Positions 278 to 37,845 of a DNA stretch of 45,433 nt are shown piece by piece. The position numbers and the translations under genes were made by a program. The notes beneath the pieces were generated by a model. The model saw only the letters and a program-made list of their open reading frames with translations. It did not search any database and was not told the DNA's origin. Position 1 is the first letter of the stretch, and the number at the start of each line of letters is the position of its first letter. The stretch is from a virus. The stretch lies in IMG/VR virus record IMGVR_UViG_3300050119_000188, positions 1 to 45,433 of that record, one strand, 5' to 3'.

Positions 278-306
278 AGATTAGCACCGAACCTTTTCGC
301 TGTCAA
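278..306 (-). promoter_or_regulatory. Sigma70-type promoter for the gene starting at 269
   Basis: On the minus strand the -35 is TTGACA (301-306) and the -10 is TAATCT (278-283), with a 17-base spacer. The ATG lies 8 bases after the -10, so the leader would be only about 2 bases. The -35 overlaps the end of the upstream gene. Confidence 0.7.
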
Positions 307-647
307 TCAGGTAAATCTAAGTCGTCGAGCTGACTCAACCGGAGCCGGAGATATTGGACCGCCATCACCTTGGCCTTGTGTTCGGTAGGAGCCCATGATC
401 CGGTTTCACGCACCAGCCATTGACGTTGGTCAATACGCTGAGGTAATCCTGGGTGTTGGGAAATGTGCACGTTAACTCCCAGACAGTGTCCCGACCACCC
501 TTTATACGGCGGCTTATGGTTCCTTCGTTTGGGACCATTGGCCCATGATCCATCAGGTCTCACGGTTGCATATCCGAATACGTATTTGGGCCAATCATCC
601 CTGACCCATCTGACGTCCTTCGCAGTCATGCGGGTCGGCTTTGCCAT
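303..647 (-). CDS. Small B-type domain protein with C-terminal DLPD tag
   Basis: A 114-aa protein of unknown function. It fits the B-type pattern seen repeatedly in this window: aromatic beta-strands (WPKYVFGYATV, then GHCLGVNVHIS), a tryptophan-rich strand (RQWLVRETGSW), an alanine/lysine helix (EHKAKVMAVQYLRLRL), then an acidic end DDLDLPD. The tag is the last thing before the stop. The gene overlaps the 3' end of the upstream glycosylase-like gene by 22 bases, so the two are probably co-transcribed and translationally coupled. The fold and tag are inferred by comparison with the other copies in this window. I know of no named family. Confidence 0.75.
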   Translation of the reverse strand: MAKPTRMTAKDVRWVRDDWPKYVFGYATVRPDGSWANGPKRRNHKPPYKGWSGHCLGVNVHISQHPGLPQRIDQRQWLVRETGSWAPTEHKAKVMAVQYLRLRLSQLDDLDLPD

Positions 648-1075
648 AGGTCGACGACCACCTTCATAGCGCGCTTAAATGAGGCTTGATCGGCAGCGCT
701 TCGAGCCGCTGGGTGCGGGGACTCGATTAAATGGAGAGTCGGGATTAGTTCGCGCAGCGCCTCCCTAGCAACCTTGCCGAACGCGATCACCAGATCCGGG
801 TGATGGAGGTCCAGGGTCGCCGAAATGTGGCTGAGATCGGCCAGCACCTTATCGGACGCCCGGCCCGTGATGGTGGTGGAGGCTTCCTCCCAGACGATCG
901 AGTCGCAGAGATCCTGCCCCAGCTGCTTGCGGAGGTTCCGGCCCGTCACGCACCCGGCGAACAGCGCATACATGATCAACCTGCGACGATAGTCGGGGCC
1001 GTGGGTTGCGATCATGTAACGAACTCGATCGGGGTCACGGACCCAAGTGTTCTGCAGAAACGCGACGATCTTCAT
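626..1075 (-). CDS. Uracil-DNA glycosylase superfamily-like protein
   Basis: From ATG 1075 the protein has 149 aa. Its layout fits the small phage members of the uracil-DNA glycosylase fold: an N-terminal strand MKIVAFLQNTW, then GCVTGRNLRKQLG, a late strand DLVIAFGKVAREAL and a terminal ESPHPAARS. In the family the last two correspond to the strand and HP-containing loop near the active site. It would act on damaged or deaminated bases, or it may be a non-catalytic relative. I do not see an unambiguous catalytic acid. An upstream in-frame ATG at 1162 is rejected because that stretch is antisense to the well-supported gene starting at 1112. Confidence 0.6.
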   Translation of the reverse strand: MKIVAFLQNTWVRDPDRVRYMIATHGPDYRRRLIMYALFAGCVTGRNLRKQLGQDLCDSIVWEEASTTITGRASDKVLADLSHISATLDLHHPDLVIAFGKVAREALRELIPTLHLIESPHPAARSAADQASFKRAMKVVVDLWQSRPA

Positions 1076-1076
1076 A

Positions 1077-3497: not shown

Positions 3498-3524
3498 GCA
3501 GATATGGTGGTTGTTATCAGTTAA

Positions 3525-3570
3525 ATCTCGGCAGGCGTTAAGTTCGGGCGAATCCCGCCCTACTAAAAAA
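3525..3570. repeat. 46-bp inverted repeat, left copy
   Basis: These 46 bases are the exact reverse complement of 20333-20378. The element contains a small hairpin (GGGCG...CGCCC) beside an A/T run. It lies upstream of the minus-strand gene at 3497, at the left edge of the accessory block. Confidence 0.85.
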
Positions 3571-3717
3571 TATCTAGCATTATCAGCGATAATGTTACCC
3601 TCAATTACAACGCGCGCCTAGATATTGCAACGAGATTGTATCGTATACAACCTTAAGAGAAGCCGGTCATTGCGTAGGCCGGAATGCGTTTGATGCACTA
3701 CCTCGGAGCGAACGCGC
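3571..3717. promoter_or_regulatory. Intergenic region with two short palindromes
   Basis: No gene is seen here. Two perfect interrupted palindromes are present: TTATC-AGC-GATAA (3580-3592) and TTGTAT-CGT-ATACAA (3636-3650). They look like operator sites for a dimeric repressor, or transcription-related elements. The stretch separates the early block from the 3497 gene. Confidence 0.4.
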
Positions 3718-5616: not shown

Positions 5617-5659
5617 GGTGGAACGAATGCGTTCCTGTTCCTGAATGGCATTACATTGC

Positions 5660-5743
5660 TTATGTCCACCACCGCCCGATGCGCACCCTATCGTGCGACT
5701 GCATCGTGGCCAGCGGATCATGGTCGGCACTGGCCTCCGCCAT
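5660..5743 (-). CDS. Possible 27-aa peptide upstream of the 5616 gene
   Basis: A short frame from ATG 5743 to a TAA at 5660 (starts MAEASADHDPLATMQ, ends RIGRWWT). It lies in the gap between divergent genes. No promoter or homologue is visible, so it may be chance. Confidence 0.25.
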   Translation of the reverse strand: MAEASADHDPLATMQSHDRVRIGRWWT

Positions 5744-5767
5744 GTTTGTCGCACCATACGTAACATA

Positions 5768-5938
5768 ATGGATGGTATCATCCACGAGAATCACGGAAAC
5801 ATGTGCCTAGAGATGGTTGACTTCGTGCGGGTGGCGGGTAAGTTCCACCGAGTGGAGGCCACTTACTCACATGGTGGACGTCACTACGCTTGGTCCTCAT
5901 GGTCGATCGACCATGAGGACCACGATTTGCCAGACTAG
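5768..5938 (+). CDS. Short protein ending in the DLPD tag
   Basis: From ATG 5768 the product has 56 aa. It starts MDGIIHENHGNM, contains a beta-rich middle (VRVAGKFHRVEATYSHGG) and a strand HYAWSSWSI, and ends HEDHDLPD directly before the stop. The end matches the acidic DLP tag of many other small proteins here. The start is uncertain: two further in-frame ATGs lie downstream, and the frame is open further upstream. It overlaps the convergent gene 5935-6198 by 4 bases. Confidence 0.5.
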   Translation: MDGIIHENHGNMCLEMVDFVRVAGKFHRVEATYSHGGRHYAWSSWSIDHEDHDLPD

Positions 5939-6198: not shown

Positions 6199-6210
6199 AA
6201 TGTAGGTCGA

Positions 6211-6510
6211 TCAGCGTTTGCGATGCAATCGGCCGAGGTAGTCGTGCTGGATTTTGCTGAGCGCCGATTGCATGGCGTTGTGGACAGCGCCCCCAAAGTC
6301 CACGGCCTGTTCAGCAGGCCAGCCATCATCGTTGCCCGTAATGTCGTTCACGGAGTCGTTGAGCGCCTCCCCGAACTCCTTCATGGCTCCCAACAATTGA
6401 TTGAGCTGATGTTGACAGCGTCCGAACGATATCGGCGCAGCGTTGCCTTGTAGCAGCTCCTTGTAAAGGGCGGCAACGATCTGATTTGGTTCAATGTTTA
6501 AGTTTGGCAT
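6211..6510 (-). CDS. Hypothetical protein, duplicated cassette copy 1
   Basis: A 99-aa protein starting MPNLNIEPNQIVAAL. It is helical and soluble, with a glutamine/leucine-rich middle (RCQHQLNQLLGAMKEFGEAL), an acidic loop TGNDDGWPAEQ and a basic end. ATG 6510 is chosen over an upstream GTG at 6534 because a promoter (TTGACA, 17-base spacer, TACTCT) ends 6 bases before it. The protein is identical to the product at 19420-19719. No family is recognised. Keeping two identical copies with identical promoters suggests recent duplication, or selection for dosage. Confidence 0.75.
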   Translation of the reverse strand: MPNLNIEPNQIVAALYKELLQGNAAPISFGRCQHQLNQLLGAMKEFGEALNDSVNDITGNDDGWPAEQAVDFGGAVHNAMQSALSKIQHDYLGRLHRKR

Positions 6511-6516
6511 GTCGGA

Positions 6517-6545
6517 AGAGTAACACATGACCAACCGTTTGTCAA
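6517..6545 (-). promoter_or_regulatory. Leaderless sigma70-type promoter (minus)
   Basis: TTGACA (6540-6545), a 17-base spacer, TACTCT (6517-6522), then 6 bases to ATG 6510. It is back to back with the plus-strand promoter at 6554-6582. Confidence 0.8.
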
Positions 6546-6553
6546 GTTATGGG

Positions 6554-6582
6554 TTGACGATTGACAAGTCGCGTGATAAGAT
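6554..6582 (+). promoter_or_regulatory. Leaderless sigma70-type promoter (plus)
   Basis: TTGACG (6554-6559), a 17-base spacer, TAAGAT (6577-6582), then 6 bases to GTG 6589. The predicted +1 is the G of the start codon. Confidence 0.8.
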
Positions 6583-6588
6583 GCTGAT

Positions 6589-6885
6589 GTGCCGCGTAAA
6601 TCAATCAAATCAGTGCGCTTGCGCATCGGGATGCGTTGTTATTGTCGACACAAGTATCACCCTATCAGCGACATCCGACATCAGGAAAACAAGTTCGCCG
6701 GGAACAGACATATGTGGCGGGAGATCTGGTGCGAGGGCAGATGGCAGGCCCTATCCAGCATCCAGGCCGTGTTAGTCGCGGGACAACCGTGGAAGTTGGT
6801 TGATGTAACCAGCAACGATTGGAAGGTCATCTTGCACCTTGGTCATGCGATCGATCCGCGCTACGATCAGGACCTACCAGAATGA
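6589..6885 (+). CDS. A-type small domain protein with DLPE tag (1 of 3 in tandem)
   Basis: A 98-aa protein starting at a GTG that sits exactly at the predicted transcription start. It follows the A-type pattern: an N-terminal strand VRLRIGMRCYC, then a W...GRW strand pair (WREIWCEGRWQAL), another strand (WKVILHL) and the end YDQDLPE directly before the stop. It overlaps the next gene as ATGA, so translation is coupled. The three genes 6589-7534 look like divergent paralogues. Function unknown. The fold is probably a small SH3-like barrel, which is inference. Confidence 0.7.
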   Translation: MPRKSIKSVRLRIGMRCYCRHKYHPISDIRHQENKFAGNRHMWREIWCEGRWQALSSIQAVLVAGQPWKLVDVTSNDWKVILHLGHAIDPRYDQDLPE

Positions 6886-7205
6886 AGCCCAACTGGCATA
6901 TTGGCGACACGTGGGATGACGCACAACGCGTATACGTCGGCATGCAACTAGGGTTTGATCACAACGCGCCTCGCACTTACCGCATTGAAACGATTACTGC
7001 AAGGGCGTGGCAACACGGTCGCCTAGGCATGTCGGTAGCCAACGCTAATGTGGTCAGCTTTTCCGCTGAATTATTTTCATGGTGGCGCAGAGGTCGGCGT
7101 ATGTACCATGTTGTTGGGTGGTCTGGTAATGATACGCACGTTTTTATTCATGTAAGGTTGGCCATGGTCAGCGGGTCGATTGATGGATTGGATTTGCCGA
7201 TATGA
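6882..7205 (+). CDS. A-type small domain protein with DLPI tag (2 of 3)
   Basis: A 107-aa protein from ATG 6882, which overlaps the previous stop (ATGA). It has the A-type features: VYVGMQLGF near the N-terminus, WWRRGRRMYHVVGW in the second half, a strand HVFIHVRL, and the terminal GLDLPI. The previous and next genes share this order of features but little direct identity, as expected for old duplicates. No family is known to me. Confidence 0.7.
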   Translation: MKPNWHIGDTWDDAQRVYVGMQLGFDHNAPRTYRIETITARAWQHGRLGMSVANANVVSFSAELFSWWRRGRRMYHVVGWSGNDTHVFIHVRLAMVSGSIDGLDLPI

Positions 7206-7534
7206 AGCCTGAATGGACGTTTGGTGATATAGATGCCCGACACACAACTATGCGACTGCGGGTCGGGATGCGGGTCAAATTCTGCCAGAGTTTGCCAGGA
7301 GAACTGATGGTTCGTCAATTTGATGTCGGTCGTCTCAACCAAGTGATTCTTACAGACGGTCACCGAGATCATAATCATCCACCGCACCATATTAAATATG
7401 TGCTGCGTGGAAAACTGATGTGGCAGGTGTGTGGAATCTCAGGTTATACTCACAAGATTATATTACACGGTTATCTCGTGTCATTGGAGCAAGAATGGTG
7501 GGATCGAGAAACCGACCAGGACTTACCGATTTAG
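7202..7534 (+). CDS. A-type small domain protein with DLPI tag (3 of 3)
   Basis: A 110-aa protein from ATG 7202, overlapping the previous stop (ATGA). It starts MKPEWTFGDID, similar to its neighbour (MKPNWHIGDTW), then LRVGMRVKF, a strand KYVLRGKLMWQVCG, HKIILHGYL, and the end TDQDLPI. LRVGMRVKF closely resembles LKVGDRVKF in the tandem-module protein at 23182-25059, which links the two groups. Its stop overlaps the convergent gene 7531-7713 by 4 bases. Confidence 0.7.
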   Translation: MKPEWTFGDIDARHTTMRLRVGMRVKFCQSLPGELMVRQFDVGRLNQVILTDGHRDHNHPPHHIKYVLRGKLMWQVCGISGYTHKIILHGYLVSLEQEWWDRETDQDLPI

Positions 7535-7931: not shown

Positions 7932-8690
7932 TCATTTCTTGAAAGCTTCAGACGCCCGAATTTGCATGGCAAGCGGTAATGCGGCCATGCACTTCTTGAA
8001 CCGCTTAGTGGTCTTCGACATCGTATAAGGGTTGGGTCGCGGAATGCTCTCCAATAACGTCGTGAAGATCGCAGGTGTGATGCCTTCGGTACCGGCTAAA
8101 GCTCCTGATAGTGTGTCTCCTGCGCTCAGCCGCCCAAGCTTTCCGGCGTCATCCAGGTAGATGACCGGGTCGACGATGACGAGCGTTCCGTCCACTCGCA
8201 TAATCACGTTCTCGTTATGGAGATCTTCGACCCTGATGCCGGTTGTGGCGTTATAATAATCGTCGTTGGACAACCTGGTGAATCCCATCACCCTCATATA
8301 TGGCTCAACAATGTCACGCTCTGCCCTTTCTCCCTCTACGGCAGGCTGTGACATGATCGGCATCAAGATATCCAGATCCGTCGTCTCATCTGGATGCCAG
8401 ATAAAAGCCTCGAGCCTGAGCGGAGCCTCACTGAACATGGTGTTGTGCAGGGCGACCCGGTAGAAGAAGTCCAGATAGGTTGAATGGTAGGTAAGCCGAT
8501 TGCGCTTGAACCAGCGTTGCACAGATTTGTCGAAGTATACGTCATTTTCTCCCTCGCCCAGATCCCCTTGAGCATGCCACGGTCCATCGAACCGCGCGGT
8601 TGGCATCAAAAGCCCAGCTTCATGCGCCCATTCGGCGAGCGCTCGCTGCTCCAGCGGCCTGATTATTTTGGAGGCGGCGTTCCGCCCCGC
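7932..8690 (-). pseudogene. Kinase-like polyvalent-protein domain, C-terminal part after a frameshift
   Basis: This frame encodes about 250 residues of a protein-kinase-fold domain known from phage polyvalent proteins: KIIRPLEQRALAEWA, GENDVYFDKSVQRWFKRN, TYLDFFYRVALHN, then VEDLHNENVIMRVDG and LVIVDP, which correspond to the catalytic loop and metal-binding Asp. No sensible start lies at its beginning. The matching N-terminus is in the frame of 8663-8881. A single -1 shift, or one extra base, in the run of four G at 8685-8688 would join them. It is either a genuine mutation, programmed frameshifting or a sequence error. An internal ATG at 8606 could start a shorter product. Confidence 0.65.
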
Positions 8691-8881
8691 TTGGGCATGC
8701 GCCCTGGGGAGATGCGCGAACTCCCGGACTTGATGCGATGATACTGAGCGATGGCATCTTCGACAGACATCGGTCGCGGCTTGTAGGAGCTGTCCATGAG
8801 GTCCCTGATAAGAGCGTTCCGCTTCCTTGGGGATACAGTCCGGGCGGTAGCTTGGTTCTTGCATTTGTTTGGGATGTTCAT
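8663..8881 (-). CDS. N-terminal fragment of the frameshifted kinase-like protein
   Basis: A 72-aa frame from ATG 8881, basic at the start (MNIPNKCKNQATARTVS), then VEDAIAQYHRIKSGSSRISPGR, which is the usual run-in to a polyvalent kinase-like domain. After that it diverges into GGTPPPK and stops. The following homologous sequence (RNAASKIIRPLEQ) continues in the -1 frame. The promoter 9 bases upstream supports this start. Confidence 0.65.
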   Translation of the reverse strand: MNIPNKCKNQATARTVSPRKRNALIRDLMDSSYKPRPMSVEDAIAQYHRIKSGSSRISPGRMPKRGGTPPPK

Positions 8882-8924: not shown

Positions 8925-9185
8925 TCAGCCGGTCGACGCGATGAATTCGATATCCTTGGCCGGAATGTTGTGCGGGTCCTCGTAAGATTTGCTGCGCGCG
9001 CGATGGGTATAGACGAAGAAGCCGTCTTTATCGCGCCCAAGGCCGACCTCCTTTAATGCAGATTTGAGATCGGCAGGCTTGGCGCAACCGTGTTCGATCC
9101 CGTCTTTCTTCTTACCTTCAAGCAAGTCCGATAACTGTTGCGGCGTCATGCCGGATACGTAGATCTCAGACGGGCAGGTCATCAT
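8925..9185 (-). CDS. Conserved-looking phage protein of unknown function
   Basis: An 86-aa protein starting MMTCPSEIYVSGMTPQQLS. The C-terminal half, DGFFVYTHRARSKSYEDP followed by IPAKDIEFIASTG, has the look of a conserved small phage protein that I have seen without an assigned role. Residues 15-60 are helical (QQLSDLLEGKKKDGIEHG). It lies about 100 bases after the sigma-factor gene. The gap holds two competing short frames, neither convincing. Confidence 0.6.
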   Translation of the reverse strand: MMTCPSEIYVSGMTPQQLSDLLEGKKKDGIEHGCAKPADLKSALKEVGLGRDKDGFFVYTHRARSKSYEDPHNIPAKDIEFIASTG

Positions 9186-9286
9186 TATCTATCGACATAT
9201 TGAAGAAGCGCGCCAGACACGTGTTCGTGACACGGTGACTGAAAAGCATATACATGCCAGACTTGCTCCACGAACTTTCGTGCGCC

Positions 9287-10960
9287 TCATTTGGCAAACG
9301 TTTCCGCGCTCAACTCAATCGGTACGTCATCATCTTCGTAGAGCAGCGTGTCGGTTAGCAGCCCGTCGTTCACGTTGCCCTGGACGTGCTCAAACTGCCG
9401 CTGGATGGAATCGGGCGACGTCCGCAAGTGCTTGGCCAGTGAGTTGACGGTTTCGGGGGATGGGTCCTTAGTCATGACGTTGAATACCTCCTTGAGCTGG
9501 GAGTTGCGGCGCATCAAAGCGTGGGACGGGAACCGGACCGTGATCCCGGCGAACACTTCCATGAGCCGCTTGGCTGCGTCCATGCCGACGCACTTGATGA
9601 CGTCCGGGATGAACGAGAACTTTTCCGCCGCCCTCATGATGTCGATCTCTCCCAGCGGCTGGTCGTAGATGGATAGCAGGGCGTTGCGGATCGCCGCGTG
9701 CGTCCAGTCGAGCAAAAACTTGGCGGAGTCGAGCGGCATCCCGTAGCCAGACACGATCGTCTTCAAGATTTGCTGACGAGAGGTGTTGGCAGCATTGGTC
9801 ATGACTTCGCGGACGCAATATCGGATGATCTCCCGGATATGAGGCTCGTTCCAGCGCACTTCCAGCTCCTTGAGGGATGCCAAGATGGCGTCCCGGATGT
9901 CGGTGTCGAAGTTCTGCACGTAGTCAGTCCCAACGAACGCGTCCAGAGGGGTGTCGTGGACCGTTACCATATGGTCGCGGAACTGCTTTTCACGACCGAT
10001 GTAAGCAAGGGCGGCGTTCCGTACACAGGAACTATTCCCCACTACGATTCCATTCGCCACATAATTATGTGTCTCCTCCACCGTGATATCATACCTCCAA
10101 TCAGTGTCGGAATCATTCCACACATTAGACCGAGACCATGCGCTGGCTACGGCTTCTTCACGACATATTATTAACCTATCTGATGGGTCTAGGTCACTTA
10201 CGGATACCTTACCTCCATTAAAACGTTGAACCTCATGACCACGCGTCATCACTAATGATGCTCCTTGCCTGGCATGTAGGCTTACCCAATCGTGTTTGTT
10301 GATCGATGGGGATTTGGACCATCCAACCACTTTCTTATTGACGAATAATCCAGTCTCGGCATCCCAGCTTCGAACGCTTACTGGAAGTCTATCATCCACA
10401 ATAATATTGATAGGTAGACGATCGCCATTCGCTAGCGTCACCATAGACTTTGAAGCTACGCAGAAGTAAGTGAACACTTTGGGTGATCCGGGGGCCGTCT
10501 TGACGCCTCTGATCCATCCGCGAAATTGCCCGAACATGTGATTCTTAATGTCTTCAAATGGGGCCGAGAGCTGGAACCGATGCACCCGGATGATCGAGTC
10601 GATCAGATCGCCGGTCAGTGCGCAGATCCGTTCGTAGGTGGCAAAGTCCTCCTTCTCCTTATATTGGTTGCAGAGCTCCGTCACCAAAGCGTTGTCGAAG
10701 ATCACGCGCTTGGCAGGCTTGACGACTACGGCCCCGTTCCGTTCCTGCGGCGGCGGCACGTCAGCGATCGGCCCCAATAAAGCTGGCGGCTTGATCTTGG
10801 TGCGCACCGGCTGCAGCGGTGACTTGGCTTTTTTGCCAGCGTTCGGCCCCACCAGATCTCGGCCACATTCACAGATGATGGCTCCGGCAAACTGGTTGAC
10901 GACGGTGTGCTGGGCTCCGCACTGACATTTTATGACCTGACTGGTAGGCTTTGACTTCAT
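9287..10960 (-). CDS. Late sigma factor (gp55-like) interrupted by a mini-intein
   Basis: The 557-aa precursor has an N-terminal Cys pattern (CQCG...CECG, residues 13-33) like a zinc ribbon. The sigma70 region-2-like segment reads KVFTYF up to residue 166 and resumes SSCVRNAALAYIGREKQFR at residue 310. This recalls T4 gp55-type late sigma factors (F-YF-x-x-x-RNA). Residues 167-309 are an intein. The spliced protein would have 414 aa, longer than T4 gp55. It would direct host RNA polymerase to phage late promoters. The divergent RusA gene starts 28 bases away. Assignment to gp55 rests on the short core motif. Confidence 0.7.
   Translation of the reverse strand: MKSKPTSQVIKCQCGAQHTVVNQFAGAIICECGRDLVGPNAGKKAKSPLQPVRTKIKPPALLGPIADVPPPQERNGAVVVKPAKRVIFDNALVTELCNQYKEKEDFATYERICALTGDLIDSIIRVHRFQLSAPFEDIKNHMFGQFRGWIRGVKTAPGSPKVFTYFCVASKSMVTLANGDRLPINIIVDDRLPVSVRSWDAETGLFVNKKVVGWSKSPSINKHDWVSLHARQGASLVMTRGHEVQRFNGGKVSVSDLDPSDRLIICREEAVASAWSRSNVWNDSDTDWRYDITVEETHNYVANGIVVGNSSCVRNAALAYIGREKQFRDHMVTVHDTPLDAFVGTDYVQNFDTDIRDAILASLKELEVRWNEPHIREIIRYCVREVMTNAANTSRQQILKTIVSGYGMPLDSAKFLLDWTHAAIRNALLSIYDQPLGEIDIMRAAEKFSFIPDVIKCVGMDAAKRLMEVFAGITVRFPSHALMRRNSQLKEVFNVMTKDPSPETVNSLAKHLRTSPDSIQRQFEHVQGNVNDGLLTDTLLYEDDDVPIELSAETFAK
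10034..10462 (-). other. Mini-intein inside the sigma factor gene
   Basis: A 143-aa intein. Block A starts at Cys (CVASKSMVTLANGDRLPI), block B is VMTRGHEV with the usual T-x-x-H, and blocks F/G are YDITVEETHNYVANGIVVGN followed by Ser. The usual penultimate His is Gly here. It is too short for a homing endonuclease. It sits within the most conserved sigma segment. Confidence 0.85.
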
Positions 10961-10988: not shown

Positions 10989-11675
10989 ATGAGCAAAGCG
11001 CCACAACTTCCGGCTTACCAGCGTCTGGCAAAACATGGTCAAGCTTGCCAGCCGTCAAGGCTTGTGTTAAGAGCTTCCAAGCGGTTGGTGCTGGAGTTCA
11101 TTCATCCCGGACAGATCATGGGGAAGCAGCGCCCAAGGCGCGGAAAAGGGGTGACCAAGCACGGCAATCCGATCATGTACACGCCTAGGCGCACCCAAGA
11201 CGCTGAGGCGGTGATCGCCATGCTGGCCCGGCAGGCCATGGGCGCTGGGGCCAAGCTACTGGAAGGGTCGCTCAGGATTGAGATCACCCACTTCTCCGCA
11301 ATTCCGAAGTCCTATAGCAAAGCAGTGGCTGCCAAGTGCGAATCGGGGGAATTGAGACCCCAGAGTGACGTTGACATCGACAATTGTCAGAAGACGGTTT
11401 TCGATGCTTTGAATAAGGTGATCTATGATGATGATCGCAGGGTAGTGGAGGGAGAGTGCACCAAATGGTACGTCACCGACCGCAACGCTGCCGGATATGC
11501 GATCATCCGACTTTATCAATTGGAGTGCTTGCCTCCGGTCACGGAGGCGGAAGCTTGTATCAGTTTGAGCATGATGATTCAACGACTGGCGGATGCTCCA
11601 GCTAACCAGCGTTTTGATGTGATCGGAAAGCATCGTGATGAGCTGTTCAATATCATGAGGACGCTTGATGCCTGA
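10989..11675 (+). CDS. rusA: RusA-family Holliday junction resolvase
   Basis: A 228-aa protein, with the RusA fold in its central part. After GKQRPRRGKG and MYTPRRTQDAE comes the substrate-binding AIPKSYSK. The metal-binding acidic cluster follows in QSDVDIDNCQKTVFDALN and VIYDDDRRVVEG, the family's D-x-D-N-x-x-K-x-x-x-D-A-L...D-D-R pattern. It cuts four-way DNA junctions, here probably to debranch replicating or recombining phage DNA before packaging. E. coli RusA has about 120 aa, so there are N- and C-terminal extensions of unknown role. It is divergent from the sigma gene and overlaps the next small gene. Confidence 0.85.
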   Translation: MSKAPQLPAYQRLAKHGQACQPSRLVLRASKRLVLEFIHPGQIMGKQRPRRGKGVTKHGNPIMYTPRRTQDAEAVIAMLARQAMGAGAKLLEGSLRIEITHFSAIPKSYSKAVAAKCESGELRPQSDVDIDNCQKTVFDALNKVIYDDDRRVVEGECTKWYVTDRNAAGYAIIRLYQLECLPPVTEAEACISLSMMIQRLADAPANQRFDVIGKHRDELFNIMRTLDA

Positions 11676-11835
11676 CAAATCGCCAACCAAGTGGGAGCTT
11701 GACGGTGATGAAGATGCCGCACGAGCGATTATGGGAACGTGCACGATTCGCCGATCGTTTCGAATGTGGATGCTGGATCTCAAGCTGGCGAGGCAGCGCC
11801 TTGCCCGAGAAAGGAGGGGCCAATTGAGAACCTAG
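11668..11835 (+). CDS. Small basic protein downstream of rusA
   Basis: A 55-aa frame whose ATG lies inside the end of rusA (8-base overlap). It starts MPDKSPTKWELDGDEDAARA and continues with an arginine-rich helix (RMWMLDLKLARQRLARERR). Unknown function. The neighbouring frames over the same bases are also open, one of them ending in the DLP tag, so the exact coding frame here is not certain. Confidence 0.45.
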   Translation: MPDKSPTKWELDGDEDAARAIMGTCTIRRSFRMWMLDLKLARQRLARERRGQLRT

Positions 11836-11876
11836 ATCTTCCAGAATTGCGAGACGTCGAAGACCTCCCAGACTAA
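11766..11876 (+). CDS. Possible short peptide with a doubled DLPE/DLPD tag
   Basis: A 36-aa frame from GTG 11766 ending IENLDLPELRDVEDLPD before TAA. It holds the tag twice and little else. It overlaps the 3' half of 11668-11835 in another frame. It could be the remnant of a tagged gene, or the start may be a different non-ATG codon. Confidence 0.35.
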   Translation: MDAGSQAGEAAPCPRKEGPIENLDLPELRDVEDLPD

Positions 11877-11878
11877 CT

Positions 11879-11887: not shown

Positions 11888-11893
11888 TTCTCC

Positions 11894-27506: not shown

Positions 27507-27532
27507 GATCAAGCGATTAGTGTTTCATAGGC

Positions 27533-27557: not shown

Positions 27558-29615
27558 ATGCCAACACTCGCCACAAAATCGAACAACGGGAAGTCGTCAG
27601 ACTTGCGCATCGCTGCTATGCAGGTCGTCCGGGACTCTGGTCAGGACCCTGATGATCCAGCTAACGTGGAGCTGGTTGAGCAAGTCATCGATGAGCTATT
27701 GGAGGGGGCCGGGGAGTCGCCCACGCTCGACCAAATGTACGCGTTGGACTTCTTTCGGAAGCCGCCGACCATTGAGGAGTTCATCACCTCTAGCTACTAT
27801 TTGGGAGACGTGTGCAACGCTGACCCGCAGAATGGGGTCGAAGGATTGTTCGACACTTGGAGAACAGCGCTCATCCAGGATTTCGACATTCATTCGCCAG
27901 TTCAACAAATCATCGCATCCGGTGGGGTGGGACTCGGTAAGACTTGGTTTGGCGTCATTTGCATGCTCTATAAGGTCGCCATCTGCTTGTGCTTGCGCGA
28001 CCCCGTCACCTATTATGGGCTCAGCAAGGCATCGGCAATCACGTTCGCGTTTTTCTCGATCACGCAGAAGCAGGTCAAGGGCGGGGCGTTCTCAGACTGC
28101 GTCAAGTTCCTGCGCAGCTCACCGTTTTTTCGTGAGCACATCAAGGACGACGCGCAAACCCGTAAGTATGCGGACCGCCGCATCGACTTCCATAATGGGG
28201 TCGTGATCGAGGCAGGCAGCCAGATGGGTGAGGCGCTAGGCCGCAACACTTTGGGAGCGTTCGTCGATGAGATCAACTTTCGGCGTGAGAAGGATGCTGC
28301 GCTGGCTGCCCACGAGATGGTTGAAGCGATTCACCGCCGCATCCTGAGCCGGTTTCGTCGTGGCAATGATCATCCGGGACTGATGGTGCTGATCAGTTCA
28401 GCTCAGAACGACACCGACTTCCTGACCCAGTATATCAAGGATCATCGTCACGACCCTCGCGTCCGCGTTTACGACTATCCATGGTGGGAAGTAGTCGGCC
28501 CATACCGGATGCAATATAGCGGCGAGACGTTCACGATCGACATTGGAGACTCCATGATGTCGCCCCGGATCGTGGACGTCGAATCCGAGATCTTGAACAT
28601 TCCGCCGGACCGGATCTTGCAGCCTCCGATAGAGCATCGTGGAGAGTTCGAGGTCAACATCGTTGGATCGATCCGGGACCTGGCCGGACGCGGGACCGGG
28701 CGCACCAGCAAGCTGTTCCCCAACATCGTGTCGCTGCTCAATTGTTTGGACGATTACGAGAATCCGTTCATGGTTGACTCGATTCCGTTGAGCGTGGAAG
28801 TGAACGAGACCGCGATCTGGTCGTCCCGATATCTGGACGTCAAGAAGCTGCTGGCGCTGCGCGACTCCAAGCCGACACCCATGCGCCACCCGGCCCAGCC
28901 ACGGTTCATCCATCTTGACATGAGCACAGGCGCCATGGACGCGCTCGGTATGGCGATGGTCCATCCAGTAAGGTCCGTCGAAGTCACTGGATATGATCCA
29001 CTGACGCACCGAGCCATGCAGCTCTTCAAGCCAGTGTTTGAATTAGACTTTGCAATCCGAATCATTCGGTCGCCTGTTCATCATGATAAATCAATCAATC
29101 TTGGCAAGATTCGGGAGTTCATTGGGTGGCTGCGCAGCAAGCAGTTCAAGATTGAGATGGTGAGCTGCGATATGCGGGAGCTCTCCGATGAGATGCGTAA
29201 CATCCTAACGGCGAACGGATTCAGCGCCGAATATTTGTCGGTCGACAAGAAGAAAGATCCATACTATCAGTTCAAGCAGATGGTGGAGGAAGGCCGGTTC
29301 AGGATGTTCGATCACGATTATCTGCTGACTGAGTGCGCTAATCTTGAGGATCTGGACAAGAAGATCGATCATCCTGAGACGTTTCCGCCGTGTGTGATCA
29401 ACGGCGTCAAGATGTTGGATCTGCAGGGATCGAAGGACATGAGCGATGGCGTAGCAGCAGCTTGTTACAAGGCGTCTGAATCCCAGACTACCACCGGACA
29501 ATCTGATCCGCGCAGCCGGTCCGACATCCTCAACGGGCTGGTCATGGCTCAGGCTGAGCCAGCGGAAGGGTGGATGACGGTTGGGGTGCGACCCGATAGA
29601 CCGCGCACGTTCTAG
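27558..29615 (+). CDS. terL: Terminase large subunit
   Basis: A 685-aa packaging motor. The ATPase half has Walker A in ASGGVGLGKTWFG (120-132) and Walker B plus catalytic Glu in LGAFVDEINF (232-241), followed by MVLISSAQND (coupling motif). The nuclease half has the RNase H-like metal site: FIHLDMSTGAMDALG, then VSCDMRELSDEM, and a final Asp in GSKDMSDGVAAACY. It pumps DNA through the portal and cuts the concatemer. There is no separate small subunit in the window. Starts without a Shine-Dalgarno sequence behind the AACATTCTT element. Confidence 0.92.
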   Translation: MPTLATKSNNGKSSDLRIAAMQVVRDSGQDPDDPANVELVEQVIDELLEGAGESPTLDQMYALDFFRKPPTIEEFITSSYYLGDVCNADPQNGVEGLFDTWRTALIQDFDIHSPVQQIIASGGVGLGKTWFGVICMLYKVAICLCLRDPVTYYGLSKASAITFAFFSITQKQVKGGAFSDCVKFLRSSPFFREHIKDDAQTRKYADRRIDFHNGVVIEAGSQMGEALGRNTLGAFVDEINFRREKDAALAAHEMVEAIHRRILSRFRRGNDHPGLMVLISSAQNDTDFLTQYIKDHRHDPRVRVYDYPWWEVVGPYRMQYSGETFTIDIGDSMMSPRIVDVESEILNIPPDRILQPPIEHRGEFEVNIVGSIRDLAGRGTGRTSKLFPNIVSLLNCLDDYENPFMVDSIPLSVEVNETAIWSSRYLDVKKLLALRDSKPTPMRHPAQPRFIHLDMSTGAMDALGMAMVHPVRSVEVTGYDPLTHRAMQLFKPVFELDFAIRIIRSPVHHDKSINLGKIREFIGWLRSKQFKIEMVSCDMRELSDEMRNILTANGFSAEYLSVDKKKDPYYQFKQMVEEGRFRMFDHDYLLTECANLEDLDKKIDHPETFPPCVINGVKMLDLQGSKDMSDGVAAACYKASESQTTTGQSDPRSRSDILNGLVMAQAEPAEGWMTVGVRPDRPRTF

Positions 29616-31489: not shown

Positions 31490-32260
31490 TCAAGAATGTT
31501 CGTGGACCGTTACCGGACTCCCTACGTCGACATAGGTGTCGACTTCGGATGCATGGATCTTGAAACGTCGTGGGGTCGGTGGATCAGTTCTGGTCACCAA
31601 CCTAGCATGCACCCTGCAAGCTTTATGGGCAACCTGCAGCCACTTGAGATCGGAGCCGATTTTATTGTTCATCCGGATCAAATACGGCTCTTTTTGATAC
31701 TGCTCCTTGACACTATGTTGGAAGACCGAAAGCTTTCGCTGTCCCGTCACTATCACCCGCATCACTTCCTCAGAATCGGTCACAATAATGGATGAACCGT
31801 CTTGTTGCTTAGCTTCACGGATGCCGACGCACATTGCCACGAGTTCGGCGTCGCTGGATGTGGTGATACCGATCCCGCTAGCCGTGCGAATGCTGATTAG
31901 TTTGCCGTTTGCTGCTACGGTCACTGCCGCGCCCGCAATATGCCCGGACAAACTAGTGCCGTCCACGAAAATGGTGGCGTTCACCTGTTGATCCATGGGC
32001 GGGTGCGATACGGCACATCGCGGAATCATCTTATCTACCTTCCTAATGAGGCTGCCGACGTTCACATGGGCGCGCTTTAAACATCGCAACGCGTCTGTCA
32101 ACAGGTTGCGATCCACCAGCTCCTTGATCGACGCCATCTCGGCCTCGTGGAACAATAATTTGGTAATTAACCTTTGATGATCGCATGAAGGATGGTCTTT
32201 AGGTTGCTCCTTCGCATGATATCGGTAATTGTCGCCGTCTGGCCATCCGCGCGTCTCCAT
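31490..32260 (-). CDS. RNase H-like fold protein
   Basis: From ATG 32260, one base after the previous stop, the protein has 256 aa. After a helical N-terminal 90 residues (including IKELVDRNLLTDALRCLKRA), it has NATIFVDGTSLSGHIAGAAV with the first Asp, then SSDAELVAMCVGIREA with the Glu, then SSIIVTDSEEVMRVI with the next Asp. This D-E-D order is that of RNase HI-type domains, which cut RNA in RNA-DNA hybrids. It could remove primers in phage replication. The fourth acidic residue is not obvious, so activity is uncertain. Confidence 0.7.
   Translation of the reverse strand: METRGWPDGDNYRYHAKEQPKDHPSCDHQRLITKLLFHEAEMASIKELVDRNLLTDALRCLKRAHVNVGSLIRKVDKMIPRCAVSHPPMDQQVNATIFVDGTSLSGHIAGAAVTVAANGKLISIRTASGIGITTSSDAELVAMCVGIREAKQQDGSSIIVTDSEEVMRVIVTGQRKLSVFQHSVKEQYQKEPYLIRMNNKIGSDLKWLQVAHKACRVHARLVTRTDPPTPRRFKIHASEVDTYVDVGSPVTVHEHS
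31492..31500 (-). promoter_or_regulatory. AACATTCTT upstream element of the dCTP deaminase gene
   Basis: AACATTCTT followed by 6 bases and ATG 31485. It overlaps the 3' end of the RNase H-like gene. Confidence 0.5.
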
Positions 32261-32495: not shown

Positions 32496-32524
32496 ATGTT
32501 AGCAGCTCGTGCGCCGTTGGTCAA
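32496..32524 (-). promoter_or_regulatory. Leaderless sigma70-type promoter
   Basis: TTGACC (32519-32524), a 17-base spacer, TAACAT (32496-32501), then 6 bases to ATG 32489. The -35 overlaps the last codons of the reductase gene. Confidence 0.8.
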
Positions 32525-35500
32525 GCGCATCCGGAAGACGCTCCGCACGCTGGGCAAGTATGGCAACTGCCAGAGCGATTCATGATAGTGCCGCAGATTT
32601 GGCACGGTGGGGCATCGATGGAAGCGCGTGGCGGTTCAGAGAAGATAACTTTTGCCGTGGTAAGGTCGCGAGGATCGACCTTTCCCACCGTAGGTTTATC
32701 GTAGTGGATCTGCAATAGCTTGAACAGATAGTCGACGATCGAATCGCAGAACCGGATGTCTGGGTTCTTGGTGATGCCGGATGGGTCGAACTTGGTGTTG
32801 ACAAATCCTTTGATCAGCAGGTCAAGTGGCACGCCGTGCTGCAGCGACACACTCAGGAGGCGCGTGAAGGAATCTACGAACCCCGCGACAGTGGTCCCAG
32901 GTTTCCCGAGCTTGAGGAATACTTCTCCCGGCCTTCCGTCCGGGTATTCGCTCACCAGGATGTACCCTTTGTGGCCCGCGATGTCGAACTTGTGCCGCCA
33001 TCCCGTCACGTCCATGGGTAGCTTATCGCGCCCGATCTTGACCGGCGGCAGGAGTTTCTCCGCCACGATCGTTGGGTTCTTCGCTTTTTCACCGTCCGAT
33101 TTCTTGGAGGATAGCGGCTGCGACGCCTTGCATCCATCGCGGTAAACGGCGATGCACTTCAATCCGAGCTTCCACCCTTCCATGTAAACGTCGGCGATCT
33201 CCTTGGCCGTCACCGTGCTGGGTAAATTGCAGGTCTTGCTCATTGCACAGGTAATAAGCGGCTGGATGGATGACATCATGAGGAGATGCGCCCGTGGCGT
33301 CAGACATCGCCCAGATGGTCCGGACGCGGACGCGCAATCGAACACCGCCAAATGCTCCGGCTTGATATGGGGAGCGCCGTCAACTGTCGAATGTTCGTCG
33401 ATGTGCCGCAAGATCGCGGCAGATTCATCTGAGGTGTATCCGAGGCTCGTCAATGAGGCGCCGACGCTCCCAATCACCAATTTCGTGTAACCGCCCCCCA
33501 CCATGCTCTTGTAGCTGACCAGCGCGAACGCAGGTTCAATCCCGGTGGTGTCCATCCCCATCAGGAACCCGATGCAACCAAGAGGCGCTTGCAGAGTGGC
33601 TTGCGAGATGTTGTACCCGTAGCGTTCGCCGAGCGTGATCACGCTCCGCCAGATGCGGGCGCTGTGATGGTCGGAGCCAATTGGGCAGGTCGGCGTCTCC
33701 CATTTCCTAGTTACCTGCGCGTCGGCAGTCTGATGCATCCTCATGATCTTGAGCATGTCGCGGCGGTTGGCTGAGAATTCTGAGAACGCTCCCACTCGCG
33801 CCGCCAGCTTAGCCGACGTTTGATAGGCGACGCCCGTCATCAGTGACGCCAATCTGGCCGCGACCGCCCGCCCCTCATTGCTGTCGTACCCGAACCCCAA
33901 TCGCATCAACAGCGCCCCGAGATTACCATAGTTGAGCCCGATAGGGCGCAGCTTGTGAGAGTTGATCCGAATCTTCTCGGTCGGATAATCAGCCCTGGCG
34001 ACGATTGCCATCTGGGCAGTGCTGAAGATCCTGCAGACATGTTCAAACTGGATTGCGTTGAATTGCCGGACGCTAAAGTTGAAGAACTTTGTCAGATTGA
34101 CGGCGCACAGGTTGCAGGCAGTGTCGTCGACATGGAGAAACTCGGAGCACTGGAAAATGTGCACGCCATCGGCCACGATAGTATGAGTATCCGGCTCGGT
34201 CATGTTGTAGGTGATCGCCGTCTCGCCGTGATCTGTCACTGACTTGACGGTGTCATACCAAATATCGTGGATTGGCGCAGAGTATCCTTTAGGTAACAGA
34301 TCCTCCATCCTTTTTTGTTTCCTGGATGAGAACATGCCGCCCAGAGCTATCCACCCGTCACGCAGCTTCCGTAAACTGTGTCCGTAGACGAATAGCTCGT
34401 GGCAATTGTGCGCTGACGTGTACTCGCGCTCCTCGCCGCTGACAGTTGTGTATTTGAACGGAGTTTTAACATTGGTCCGTTTATTGCGATCGAGTTGAAT
34501 TGTTGACTTAATTCCCAGATTTAACAGCAATGCTTGGACATCGCGCAGGAGACCGGCACTGATGCTGGCCAGCCGTAATTCTCGTGTTGGAATCTTACCG
34601 TGGTGGCCCTTCGCACTTACTCTGAACGTGCCATCGGCAGAAAACAATCCAGCCAAGTAGGCGAGCTGGTCGACTTTTTGCGCTCTGAACACGGTATCCG
34701 CCACGCGTTTAGTATGCGCAACAGAACCAAAAGGACATGCGATATCCGCCAAGAGATTGACGATCGCGGATTTGCGAATCCGCAAATAACGAGGGCTCTC
34801 CCCTACTGATCCTGCTTGCAGTTTAATACTGTGTGGGATCGAGCACCGTGTGAGCAATCCGACCACACGCTCCATACAGTCATCATCGTCCTTACCGAAG
34901 CACATTCCGGCTTCAATGCCGCGACCGGATTTTGTCATCCATCCGTCTCCCACCAAAAACCCGGCAAGCTGAAACCATTCTGCCTGTTCCCGCATATTGA
35001 TGTCTATGTTGCCGAATCCTCCCTCAGATGGTTGGATGTCCACAGTGTCTCCGGCAGTGAGTTTCGCAGCTTCGCAACGCGATCCATCACGCAATCTATA
35101 CCCGTGGTCCGGTGTCACTTTCATTAAACGACCGGATGCGAAGAGCACCTCAACAATCGGGTTTTCACCAGTGCAAAATACGTCGACAGACTTCACGGCC
35201 ATGGTTCCATCCACCGGAATAACTACCTGCGCCGCATCACCGCTTGCTGCGATGTCTTCAATACGTAGTGGACCGTTAACAGTGGCAATCCTTGTACCGG
35301 GCGCAAAGCAGGGGTTCGATCCCCGGATGCGTCCCGCCTTGGGAGTAGTGTGCCACTTGTTCATAGTGTCGCTGAACTGGACTCCTGGGTCGCCGCACAC
35401 CCACGCGGACTCGGCCAAGGCGTTCCACAGATCTCGCGCCTTGTAGGTATGGATGGTTTCTCCGGTCGTTCGCGCCTTGGTTTCCCAATTTCCATCCGCC

Positions 35501-36687
35501 TCGACTGCCTGCATGAACGCGTCGCTGATTGACGCCGAAATGTTGGCGTTCTGGAATTGGACGCGCTTGTAGGCGCCGTTCGGATCGTCGTAATTGGTCG
35601 GGTATCCGATGTCGACCAACTGATGGGCCAGCTTTTCCTCCCCCGCCTTGCACTTCAGGAATCCGGGACGCCCATCCTTGGTCTCCAGGATGTCGGGATG
35701 GTCCATGTCCATGGCCACCAGCTTCGCCGCCGACCTGGTCCCACCTCCCGACTTCATCGCCCCCGCATACTGATCGTTACCCTTCATGAACGCCAAAGGT
35801 CCGGACGTGTAGGCGCCCGCCGAGATCTTCTCATAACTGGACCGGAGATTGGAGACGTTGACGCCCGACCCCGACCCGCTCCTGAAGATCGCGATCTCGG
35901 CGGCCTGAAACTCGGCAATCGATTCCAGCGAGTCGTCAAGTGAGCTGATGAAGCAGGCGCTGCCCATCTGACGCCGCCCCGGCACTCCGAGATTGAACCA
36001 TACTGGGCTATTGAACGCCCCGAACTGATGGACGAGCGCGTAGAGCATCTCGTGTTTGTAGGTGTTGGCGTCCTCAACGCCATTGAAGTAGTTTTGCTCG
36101 AACGCCCAGGTGGTGAGTCGGTCGGCCACGCGGGTGAACATCTGCTTGGCTGAAGTCTCCCGCACTCCGTCGATGACCCTGAAATATTTGTCGGCCACGA
36201 TGTTGACGGTTTGCTGACTCCATGTCGCTGGCACTTCGATCCCGACCACCTCGAAGATCACCTGGCCAGTAGCCGAGAGAAGTTTGGCATCAGTCTTCAC
36301 CCATTCTATGGTGTCGAACGGATGAGACTTGCCGGTCGGCTTCATGAACATCGGCTCCCAATGTCCGGCCTGCTGCGCCACTTGGGCGCTGTCGCTGAAC
36401 GCCTCCGCAATTTCCCCATAATGGAACTTGAGCAGGGTTTTCTTGATGATCAAGCGAAGGTGCTCGGCAGCGATGACGCCTTCCTGCGCTTGGTGGCGCG
36501 CGCAGACCGCCACCTCGTTAACGATCCTCATCAGGTCGCCGTTAGGATCTACCCCCACGTCGTCGAACGCCCGGCGCACCGTCGTCTCGACGTTCTTGCT
36601 GTTCCAGAGTTGTTCGCTGCCGTCACGTTTCCGCACCACTGGTGGATGAATTGTGTCGGGAGTGTCAGAGATGTCGGTGTCTTGCAT
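32521..36687 (-). CDS. nrdJ: B12-dependent (class II) ribonucleotide reductase with intein
   Basis: A 1388-aa precursor. The N-terminus is an ATP-cone (VRKRDGSEQLWNSKNVE). The barrel has FNSPVWFNLGVPG, SACFISSLDDSLESI and IFRSGSGSGVNVSNLRS, as in vitamin-B12-dependent reductases. The conserved NPCSEF...D-x-ACNL strand is split by the intein at NP|C (residue 460) and resumes at residue 847. The C-terminal part has DLLIKGFVNTKFDP and a Cys cluster (CQICG...CPACG) typical of class II enzymes. It makes deoxynucleotides without oxygen-dependent radical chemistry. Spliced length is about 1001 aa. Starts without a Shine-Dalgarno sequence. Confidence 0.9.
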   Translation of the reverse strand: MQDTDISDTPDTIHPPVVRKRDGSEQLWNSKNVETTVRRAFDDVGVDPNGDLMRIVNEVAVCARHQAQEGVIAAEHLRLIIKKTLLKFHYGEIAEAFSDSAQVAQQAGHWEPMFMKPTGKSHPFDTIEWVKTDAKLLSATGQVIFEVVGIEVPATWSQQTVNIVADKYFRVIDGVRETSAKQMFTRVADRLTTWAFEQNYFNGVEDANTYKHEMLYALVHQFGAFNSPVWFNLGVPGRRQMGSACFISSLDDSLESIAEFQAAEIAIFRSGSGSGVNVSNLRSSYEKISAGAYTSGPLAFMKGNDQYAGAMKSGGGTRSAAKLVAMDMDHPDILETKDGRPGFLKCKAGEEKLAHQLVDIGYPTNYDDPNGAYKRVQFQNANISASISDAFMQAVEADGNWETKARTTGETIHTYKARDLWNALAESAWVCGDPGVQFSDTMNKWHTTPKAGRIRGSNPCFAPGTRIATVNGPLRIEDIAASGDAAQVVIPVDGTMAVKSVDVFCTGENPIVEVLFASGRLMKVTPDHGYRLRDGSRCEAAKLTAGDTVDIQPSEGGFGNIDINMREQAEWFQLAGFLVGDGWMTKSGRGIEAGMCFGKDDDDCMERVVGLLTRCSIPHSIKLQAGSVGESPRYLRIRKSAIVNLLADIACPFGSVAHTKRVADTVFRAQKVDQLAYLAGLFSADGTFRVSAKGHHGKIPTRELRLASISAGLLRDVQALLLNLGIKSTIQLDRNKRTNVKTPFKYTTVSGEEREYTSAHNCHELFVYGHSLRKLRDGWIALGGMFSSRKQKRMEDLLPKGYSAPIHDIWYDTVKSVTDHGETAITYNMTEPDTHTIVADGVHIFQCSEFLHVDDTACNLCAVNLTKFFNFSVRQFNAIQFEHVCRIFSTAQMAIVARADYPTEKIRINSHKLRPIGLNYGNLGALLMRLGFGYDSNEGRAVAARLASLMTGVAYQTSAKLAARVGAFSEFSANRRDMLKIMRMHQTADAQVTRKWETPTCPIGSDHHSARIWRSVITLGERYGYNISQATLQAPLGCIGFLMGMDTTGIEPAFALVSYKSMVGGGYTKLVIGSVGASLTSLGYTSDESAAILRHIDEHSTVDGAPHIKPEHLAVFDCASASGPSGRCLTPRAHLLMMSSIQPLITCAMSKTCNLPSTVTAKEIADVYMEGWKLGLKCIAVYRDGCKASQPLSSKKSDGEKAKNPTIVAEKLLPPVKIGRDKLPMDVTGWRHKFDIAGHKGYILVSEYPDGRPGEVFLKLGKPGTTVAGFVDSFTRLLSVSLQHGVPLDLLIKGFVNTKFDPSGITKNPDIRFCDSIVDYLFKLLQIHYDKPTVGKVDPRDLTTAKVIFSEPPRASIDAPPCQICGTIMNRSGSCHTCPACGASSGCA
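34150..35310 (-). other. Intein with LAGLIDADG homing endonuclease in the reductase
   Basis: 387 residues (460-846 of the precursor). Block A is CFAPGTRIATVNGPLRIEDI, block B is MKVTPDHGYRL with T-x-x-H, and the two endonuclease motifs are LAGFLVGDGWM and LAGLFSADGTF. Block F/G is THTIVADGVHIFQ, followed by extein Cys. The terminal residue is Gln instead of the usual Asn. The insertion site is the conserved NP|CSE reductase motif. Confidence 0.9.
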
Positions 36688-36713
36688 GGTTAGTGTGTCT
36701 TTGAATGTGGGGA

Positions 36714-37343
36714 TCAGTGGGCCGTTTGAGGATGATTTTCAGGTGATTCGGGATCTTCTTGCTCATCCTCTTTGGGAGACAGCAGAGCCGTCCCAAACTT
36801 AGTGAGCGCGCCGTTCTCATCCAGGATGTCGCACTCCTTAAGCCAGGACACGGAGTCGTCGGAGGCGTCTCCCTGACCAGCTTGGATCGACTTCATCGCC
36901 GCCCAATCTTCAACGGTCAGTTCATATCCGGTGTCCTGCTCGTCTTCCAGTAATTTTGGCTTTTTGCGAGATTTGCGGCGCTTTTTGGCGGTGGGGTTCG
37001 GTGGGATGAACGTGGTCGGCATGCAGAGCGTGACCGACGTTTCATCAATCAGTTGATCGGCGAGAGATTCAGGTAAGTCCATGGTAGCGACGCTGTCACG
37101 ATGTTGGTTGATTAGTTCCACCACCCTAGCTTTGGCAGCATCCTCGGTAGGTTCATAATTGGTTACGTTTGCCTTAATGATGTGGATAGATTTTTTACCT
37201 TTGATCCGGAACGCATCGTAACACCACCCACTGATGCCTTTCCACACCCGCACATAAAGCGAATGATGCGTACCATAAAGCATTGGGTGCTTAGCGTCGC
37301 CTCCGCGCGCAATTTGCCACTTGAAATCGTCAACAGTCAACAT
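36714..37343 (-). CDS. B-type domain plus DLPESL tag plus basic/acidic C-terminal region
   Basis: A 209-aa protein. Residues 1-85 follow the B-type pattern (FKWQIARGG, HHSLYVRVWKGISGWCYDAF, then the helix DAAKARVVELINQHRD) and end VATMDLPESLADQLIDE. The sequence continues with a basic stretch (AKKRRKSRKKPK), then DTGYELTVEDWAAMKSIQAG and an acidic, disordered end. So the tag is internal here and links two regions. It overlaps the upstream gene by 14 bases and lies just upstream of the reductase gene. Function unknown. Confidence 0.7.
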   Translation of the reverse strand: MLTVDDFKWQIARGGDAKHPMLYGTHHSLYVRVWKGISGWCYDAFRIKGKKSIHIIKANVTNYEPTEDAAKARVVELINQHRDSVATMDLPESLADQLIDETSVTLCMPTTFIPPNPTAKKRRKSRKKPKLLEDEQDTGYELTVEDWAAMKSIQAGQGDASDDSVSWLKECDILDENGALTKFGTALLSPKEDEQEDPESPENHPQTAH

Positions 37344-37845
37344 AATTTAATAATCGATCAGATAACGATTCCGGAAGATCGTGGTCGACTGATTTTGGGC
37401 GCACTAGTTTTCCGTCGACGACATTATATCGACAACCACGCAGGTGGACGCACGTGGCTGCCACCCTTCTTGCCACAAAATTGTTCCTTGCTGTGATGTA
37501 TCCACCAGCCCAGATGTCACCTGTCGCATTAATGTTTATCGCCCCAATATATCCTCCAGCTGATATGCATCCATTCACCACAATGTTGTTTTTCGCCGCG
37601 ATGTTACCTGTTGCCTTGATGTTGCCTATCACCCTGATGCTGCCTCCTGCAGCAATGTTTTTCTCCTTCCACGATCGGCCCATAACAGTAACATCACCAT
37701 TGACCACAATGTTCCCTCTCGCTGCGATGTCATGATGGAATGATATTGGACCCTCAATAACTAAATCGACTAGGTATCTCGGAAACTTGCCGAGATACCT
37801 ACCTTTGGCGTCACAATCTTTAGCCGTGATGATCAGATTAGACAT
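37330..37845 (-). CDS. Bactofilin-like beta-helix protein with DLPESL tag
   Basis: A 171-aa protein. Residues 30-145 are a series of short repeats with the pattern I-x-A-x-G-N-I/V-x-V-x-G (DIAARGNIVVNGDVTVMG, GGSIRVIGNIKATGN, KNNIVVNGCISAGGYIG). This predicts a right-handed beta-helix, as in bactofilin-type polymer-forming proteins. It ends VDHDLPESLSDRLLNYVDC. The final part (tag plus SDRLL) is very similar to the 20-aa minigene. Its role in a phage is unknown; it could be a structural filament or scaffold. Confidence 0.7.
   Translation of the reverse strand: MSNLIITAKDCDAKGRYLGKFPRYLVDLVIEGPISFHHDIAARGNIVVNGDVTVMGRSWKEKNIAAGGSIRVIGNIKATGNIAAKNNIVVNGCISAGGYIGAININATGDIWAGGYITARNNFVARRVAATCVHLRGCRYNVVDGKLVRPKSVDHDLPESLSDRLLNYVDC

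Follow-up and report, generated by a model that had tools for sequence, protein, structure and literature searches.

The peptide DxDLPES, which recurs in about a dozen proteins of the window (the whole stretch of DNA analyzed here, a 45,433-base virus record that is a genome fragment), is quite probably a lineage-specific maturation signal, for cleavage or targeting, of cargo of the phage head, as judged from sequence comparisons. The tag is far above chance: a six-frame scan finds 12 copies of DLPE[ST] in the window, as compared with 0.125 expected from 200 dinucleotide-preserving shuffles, and eight copies of DLP[EDIV] directly followed by a stop codon, as compared with 0.115 expected from 200 shuffles of the same kind, with 0 matches for the reversed DNA pattern used as a control. 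The only second phage with multiple copies was found by an IMG/VR scan for [D/E]QDLPESL, with four viral-contig scans made in all. This contig, IMGVR_UViG_3300050119_000254 (52,593 bases, referred to as G001), is likewise a fragment, is only distantly similar to the window phage, and has 14 copies of DLPE[ST] (six frames) and four of DLP[EDIV]-stop. Wider tag patterns gave only single or chance-level copies in other viral contigs, and the tag pattern in genome contigs gave scattered, mostly single matches in bacteria. No match to a 20-residue tag or to one of the carriers was found by tblastn in cultured phages, and DLPE[ST] is absent from the cultured phages with similar capsid proteins, being SP-15, LIS04, and QdP_Psa3 (~37–38 kb around the capsid gene in each).

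Carriers of the tag and their modules

The tag copies are located at C-termini and at the junctions of multi-module proteins. The C-terminal copies listed in the original prediction (ending at 303, 5938, 6885, 7205, 7534, 15543, 17310, 21004, 23182, and 37330) were recovered, as were the internal copies in 15543–16934 (two), 17935–19053 (one), 23182–25059 (five), and 36714–37343 (one). At 11876, the peptide is present, but it is part of a short ORF without a clear start, which may not be a gene, and the gene status of the ORF with a further copy at 9166–9186, also short and with an unclear start, is equally doubtful.

Single-module proteins are encoded at 303–647 (minus strand, C-terminus DLDLPD-stop), 5645–5938 (plus strand, DHDLPD-stop), and 6589–6885 (plus strand), the latter ending with DQDLPE-stop, exactly at the predicted P1 glutamate, with its stop codon overlapping the next start (GAATGA). 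The adjoining genes 6882–7205 (plus strand, overlapping with the next start as ATATGA) and 7202–7534 (plus strand) end with GLDLPI-stop and DQDLPI-stop, respectively, and the single-module protein of 16903–17310 (plus strand) has the C-terminus DLDLPESLLGLF-stop. The 20-residue C-terminal form of the tag is of the DLPESLADRLLG type. The three-part polyprotein of 15543–16934 (minus strand) has the tags NDDLPEA (16623–16646) and EQDLPES (15894–15917) and the C-terminal EQDLPESLLD-stop (15543–15575); its middle part had been labeled as GNAT-like, which was not confirmed by Pfam. The carrier 17935–19053 (plus strand) starts with a targeting-like peptide, MVLPDDYIQLLTEA, which is followed by a first module, the tag SWDLPESL (18280–18303), and a putative ADP-ribosyltransferase-like domain, recognized by eye and having no Pfam match. 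The six-module polyprotein of 23182–25059 (minus strand) has tags at 24679–24702, 24334–24357, 24031–24054, 23767–23790, and 23434–23457 and the C-terminus DQDLPEVLLNRADDIL-stop. In the protein of 36714–37343 (minus strand), the tag MDLPESLADQLIDE (37041–37082) is between an A-module and a second domain, and the beta-solenoid (FapA/bactofilin-like) protein of 37330–37845 (minus strand) has the C-terminus DHDLPESLSDRLLNYVDC-stop, with its homologues in G001 retaining the C-terminal tag. The carrier of the copy ending at 21004 is not the tail tube protein but a mini-ORF of 20 codons between the portal and tube genes (21004–21066, minus strand), which is nearly all tag (MINIDQDLPESLADRLLDIQ) and whose stop codon overlaps the start of the tail tube gene (TAATG). 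The carriers have almost no matches in Pfam and PHROGs, neither of which identifies a peptidase family in them.

When the carriers are split at the tag, modules mostly of 75–125 residues are obtained, several of which are mutually homologous; they are of the A-type (five strands and a helix), the B-type (LKVGDRV...), the beta-solenoid type, and other types. Modules of one and the same kind are found both alone, in genes that stop right after DLPx, and strung together. The stand-alone module genes stop exactly at the P1 residue, and five such genes, of which two are from the window and three from G001, have an ATGA-type stop/start overlap, which may account for the I or V that replaces E in those genes. 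In the AlphaFold model of the A-module, the module has a good fold (pLDDT 82) and the tag is of low confidence. The model of the full polyprotein is poor apart from the beta-solenoid; in it, the C-terminal ESLADRLL follows a disordered linker and is predicted, with low confidence, as a helix. The predicted cutting sites are in flexible boundary regions at 12 of 12 A-module ends, and the tag has a low pLDDT in two models. Foldseek gave nothing significant for the A-module, with weak dsRBD-like and Pur-alpha-like matches (E 0.6 to 2.4) that were disregarded.

At the DNA level, the original prediction held that the peptide is kept and not the DNA. This is the case for the sequence flanking the tag, where the identity is 0.27 and 0.25 as compared with a background of 0.25, but within the motif the codons are more similar than usage predicts, as the 26 DLPES copies from the window and G001 have a pairwise codon identity of 0.42, where codon usage predicts 0.35 ± 0.02. 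The tag copies are therefore related by descent and have not evolved independently. This descent (serine is encoded by TCN in 26 of the 26 copies of both phages and leucine by CTT in 16 of 26), together with the paralogy of several modules, agrees with the tag being an uncut linker that was copied and fused along with the modules and that has no function of its own. Such a linker is quite improbable, as the tag also occurs on unrelated folds (beta-solenoid, A, B, and other) and as a free mini-ORF, and as homologous tag positions are kept in the two phages despite the divergence of the flanks to background, where neutral linkers should decay. The many in-frame copies on both strands could also point to a mobile DNA element that inserts in frame, as the Rickettsia palindromic elements do, and for which the DNA should be conserved past the encoded peptide. 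This is hardly credible, because there is no DNA similarity beyond the peptide; no DNA repeat was found around the tag copies, nor were inverted repeats associated with them.

Repeats of other kinds were observed as well. A direct repeat of 454 bases, 100% identical (6203–6656 and 19412–19865), contains an ORF of 107 residues plus the first part of the gene after it; it either arose by recent duplication or was introduced in assembly. A 146-base element (3524–3669 and 20333–20432) is 99.3% identical to G001 49057–49202, with inverted partial copies in the window and in G001 (32082–32166), where the copy overlaps the 3' part of an ORF that was named IS605-type TnpB-like by eye; this suggests a transposon end that may have been shared recently by the window phage and G001.

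A second carrier phage and its prohead protease

In G001, the gene at 16066–18054 encodes a scaffold together with a prohead protease of the S77 (gp21) type in one fusion protein (PF03420, E 7e-10). Two tagged polyprotein genes directly precede this protease–scaffold gene, which is followed by the gene of the gp23 capsid protein (PF07068, E 2.5e-48); a tagged polyprotein is encoded at 14775–16043. The protease and capsid genes are absent from the window, which is a fragment. The prohead protease of T4, gp21 (peptidase S77), cuts after L/I-x-E (PMC9026906), the protease of SPN3US prefers a serine after the cut (PMC10052503), and Alt, the injected ADP-ribosyltransferase of T4, is cut at both ends, with the C-terminal cut after LTE (PMC5694885). 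The tag agrees with this S77 site pattern of L/I-x-E and a small residue, in the form DLPE↓S (the arrow denotes the predicted cut) in 26 copies. Where an A-type module has further chain behind it, [LI]xE[AST] is found within ~20 residues in 12 of 12 cases (both phages; two of these are weak profile matches), as compared with 5% of windows of 23 residues taken from other genes; as this count includes the DLPES copies, its independent weight is in the DLLE↓A junction of G001, which is the only A-module junction without DLPE, and in the relatives. The pattern L-x-E[AST] is loose, occurring 2.5 times per 1000 residues in other genes.

It is possible to construct a maturation pathway from these data. 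The DLPE↓S core would be the cutting site of a T4-type prohead protease, and the optional helix S-L-A-D-R-L-L would be a capsid-targeting peptide, located C-terminally or between modules, whereas that of T4 is N-terminal. The prohead core would take up the tagged proteins, the module strings would be cut to single modules, each ending with ...DxDLPE, and these would stay in the head and be delivered with the DNA. Cutting at the tag, targeting by the helix, and the occurrence of the products in the virion and their injection are what we infer from the sequences. The proposal that the tagged proteins have one common partner is supported. Of the host protein, phage protease, and recruiting scaffold that had been suggested, the protease is the best fit, and the scaffold or core could be a second partner where the helix is concerned.

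The carriers had been described as early proteins, which is not supported by their location in the structural operon and, in G001, beside the protease–scaffold and capsid genes. In the window, tagged genes are found in the gap between the gpJ and portal genes, in the gap between the portal and tail tube genes, and after a baseplate gene. The six-module polyprotein gene (23182–25059) is between the genes of the baseplate gpJ-like protein (25056–27512, minus strand) and the portal protein (21068–23173, minus strand), which are ~20 bases apart in the related contig G020. The tail tube protein is encoded at 20429–21004 (minus strand) and the terminase large subunit at 27558–29615 (plus strand). 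As far as gene order can tell, this placement favors late expression, related to the virion, over early expression. The window also encodes a Kinase-PolyVal domain protein (7932–8864, E 2e-27), whose family has been linked to proteins that phages inject.

Junction sites and targeting peptides in related phages

Five contigs, G018–G022, share 54–73% of the G001 capsid protein and, each covering part of the set, are ~38–53% identical to the terminase, portal, gpJ, sheath, and RNR of the window, with homologous gpJ-like genes in G018 and G020. From these similarities, the window phage, G001, and G018–G022 seem to form one phage group; the window terminase and gpJ have no close relatives in IMG/VR. 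For some proteins of the window, the alignment with the relatives is interrupted: the ribonucleotide reductase large subunit (32521–36687) has an intein-like insert at about residues 460–820, with the G019 and G022 homologues aligning only to either side of it, and the protein of 9287–10960 has a probable intein-like insert, as its G020 homologue aligns as two segments that are separated around residues 261–285 of the window protein.

Homologues of the S77 protease are present in G018–G022. Near the N-terminus of the capsid protein, [LI]xE↓A is conserved in six of the six phages of the group (as LIE↓A in G001), and the scaffold part of the protease–scaffold protein ends with LTE↓T, LTE↓A, IEE↓A, DLKE↓S, or DLNE↓S. 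The original prediction had tied the shared function to the presence of the tag in related phages; DLPES is missing from G018–G022, also where the domains are homologous, but a different L/V-x-E↓A/S site is found at the same junction. At the homologous junction before a SWIM-like domain, the site is LPE↓S in G001, LEE↓S in G020, and LVE↓S in G019 and G022, and a G022 protein that resembles the protein of 36714–37343 by eye has DHDLPIDLIE↓S at the equivalent junction. In the multi-module proteins of G019 and G022, PVTE↓A stands at two junctions, and the other junction sites are PVRE↓A, PVRE↓S, GLTE↓A, and SLADRILSE↓A. The pattern [LIV]xE[AST] occurs 5.5–11.8 times per 1000 residues in their polyproteins, but at 4.6 per 1000 it is also far from rare generally in these two phages. 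The A- and B-module profiles have no members in G018–G022, so that the junctions of the relatives are mostly position-equivalent and not strictly homologous. On balance, we lean toward injected cargo in the form of strings of small modules joined by prohead-protease sites, as the phage equivalent of viral polyproteins and with a C-terminal or internal targeting helix, in which the junctions would be lineage-specific (DLPE↓S in two phages, PVTE↓A and PVRE↓S in others) and the L/V-x-E core would be kept.

The conservation of DxDLP is stricter than the specificity of the protease would call for, and the stand-alone ends DLPD, DLPI, and DLPV, which have no helix, do not conform to L-x-E and therefore fit the cleavage model only as ready-made products. 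As these stand-alone proteins and the mini-ORF are only loosely explained by cleavage, DxDLP might instead serve for docking, with one partner (a host factor, the scaffold, or a protein of DNA metabolism) binding the C-terminal or exposed peptide without any cut, in the manner of an SSB tail. The stand-alone ends DQDLPI, DLDLPV, DEDLPD, and others do keep DxDLP without E and S, and the acidic-hydrophobic-proline pattern resembles what is generally known of SSB tails. However, most copies run on past ES and many are internal, which is a misfit for a ligand with a free C-terminus, it is only in copies with chain behind them that the E and S hardly vary, and the homologous junction in the relatives retains L-x-E↓S and not DxDLP; docking is thus unlikely. 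Genuine C-terminal tails of the SSB type (acidic, with I/L-P-F at the free end) were rejected, as no copy has a phenylalanine after the proline and most continue with E-S. The sortase signal LPxTG was also rejected, since the motif is LPES and the C-terminal copies end within a few residues, without a membrane segment or basic tail.

Returning to the maturation signal, the SLADRLL stretch after DLPE is a predicted helix, and similar stretches are seen in the relatives (SLADRILSE↓A, and LADRLLTE↓A near the N-terminus of a protein). The sequences suggest that the helix could be the C-terminal capsid-targeting part and DLPE↓S the cut. To our knowledge, C-terminal targeting peptides have not been demonstrated in T4-like phages. 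When a T4 CTS is defined as a short N-terminal peptide ending with L-x-E, the DLPES tag falls outside this definition, and the peptides M-x-P-x-x-F-x-x-L-x-E fall within it. The latter are at the N-termini of 16 ORFs of G022, 10 of G019, and five of G001, as compared with 0–0.15 in shuffles; MTPRRFIHLIE↓S is an example of a targeting-like peptide of this kind, and an ART-PolyVal protein is among the bearers. Similar N-termini are found twice in the window, being that of the carrier 17935–19053 and that of a small protein with the T4-like targeting peptide MTPQQLSDLLE↓G (8925–9149, minus strand). The 16 and 10 peptide-bearing ORFs of G022 (L170–L173) and G019 (L161–L163) are candidate head-packaged proteins. 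In G001 (L017), a 2H/Acb1-like protein (11590–12135), possibly anti-CBASS, adjoins a GNAT acetyltransferase (12132–12656), and both have targeting-like N-termini.

Comparison with known systems

For the DLPES sequence, no paper describing such a phage system was found, as had been supposed, but the kind of signal is known from T4 (PMC9026906). The likeness to the gp21 sites of T4 (PMC9026906) is in the L-x-E↓S core, in the protease gene adjoining the scaffold and capsid genes, and in the single specificity that is seen across the capsid-protein, scaffold, and cargo sites of this phage group. In T4, most sites are close to an N-terminus or within a core protein (PMC9026906), whereas DxDLPES is long and stereotyped, is repeated many times, and is located between modules and at C-termini. 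The internal proteins of T4 are loaded by targeting peptides (PMC9026906), and the N-terminal peptides of G001, G019, and G022 match the CTS of IPI–IPIII and Alt in position, length, and L-x-E end (PMC9026906, PMC5694885). Alt is also cut at its C-terminus (PMC5694885), which resembles the C-terminal tag; unlike the T4 CTS, DLPES-SLADRLL is C-terminal or internal and would be cut in front of the helix.

The polyvalent proteins of phages and conjugative elements are likewise multidomain cargo, for which domain release by proteolysis has been proposed (PMC5512222), and ADP-ribosyltransferase, kinase, and 2H-type domains are also found in the phages studied here. Polyvalent proteins often have their own peptidase domain (PMC5512222), whereas none was found in the tag carriers, for which the phage prohead protease is proposed instead. 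In giant-phage head processing, by SPN3US gp245 after A-x-E and in phiKZ after S/A-x-E (PMC10052503, PMC9026906), the P1 glutamate and the repeated propeptide sites are shared with the tag, as is the serine at P1' that is favored in SPN3US; the P3 residue is different, and a string of equal modules has not been described there.

If the maturation signal is correctly identified, the head-loaded and injected proteins of T4-like phages would be readable from sequence alone, which is an open problem for most phages. Prohead proteases would then free whole sets of small proteins from polyproteins, targeting signals would be possible at C-termini, and the sites and the protease would probably drift jointly within each lineage. 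The N-terminal and DLPES-type signals would thereby provide a candidate list of injected anti-defence and host-takeover proteins.
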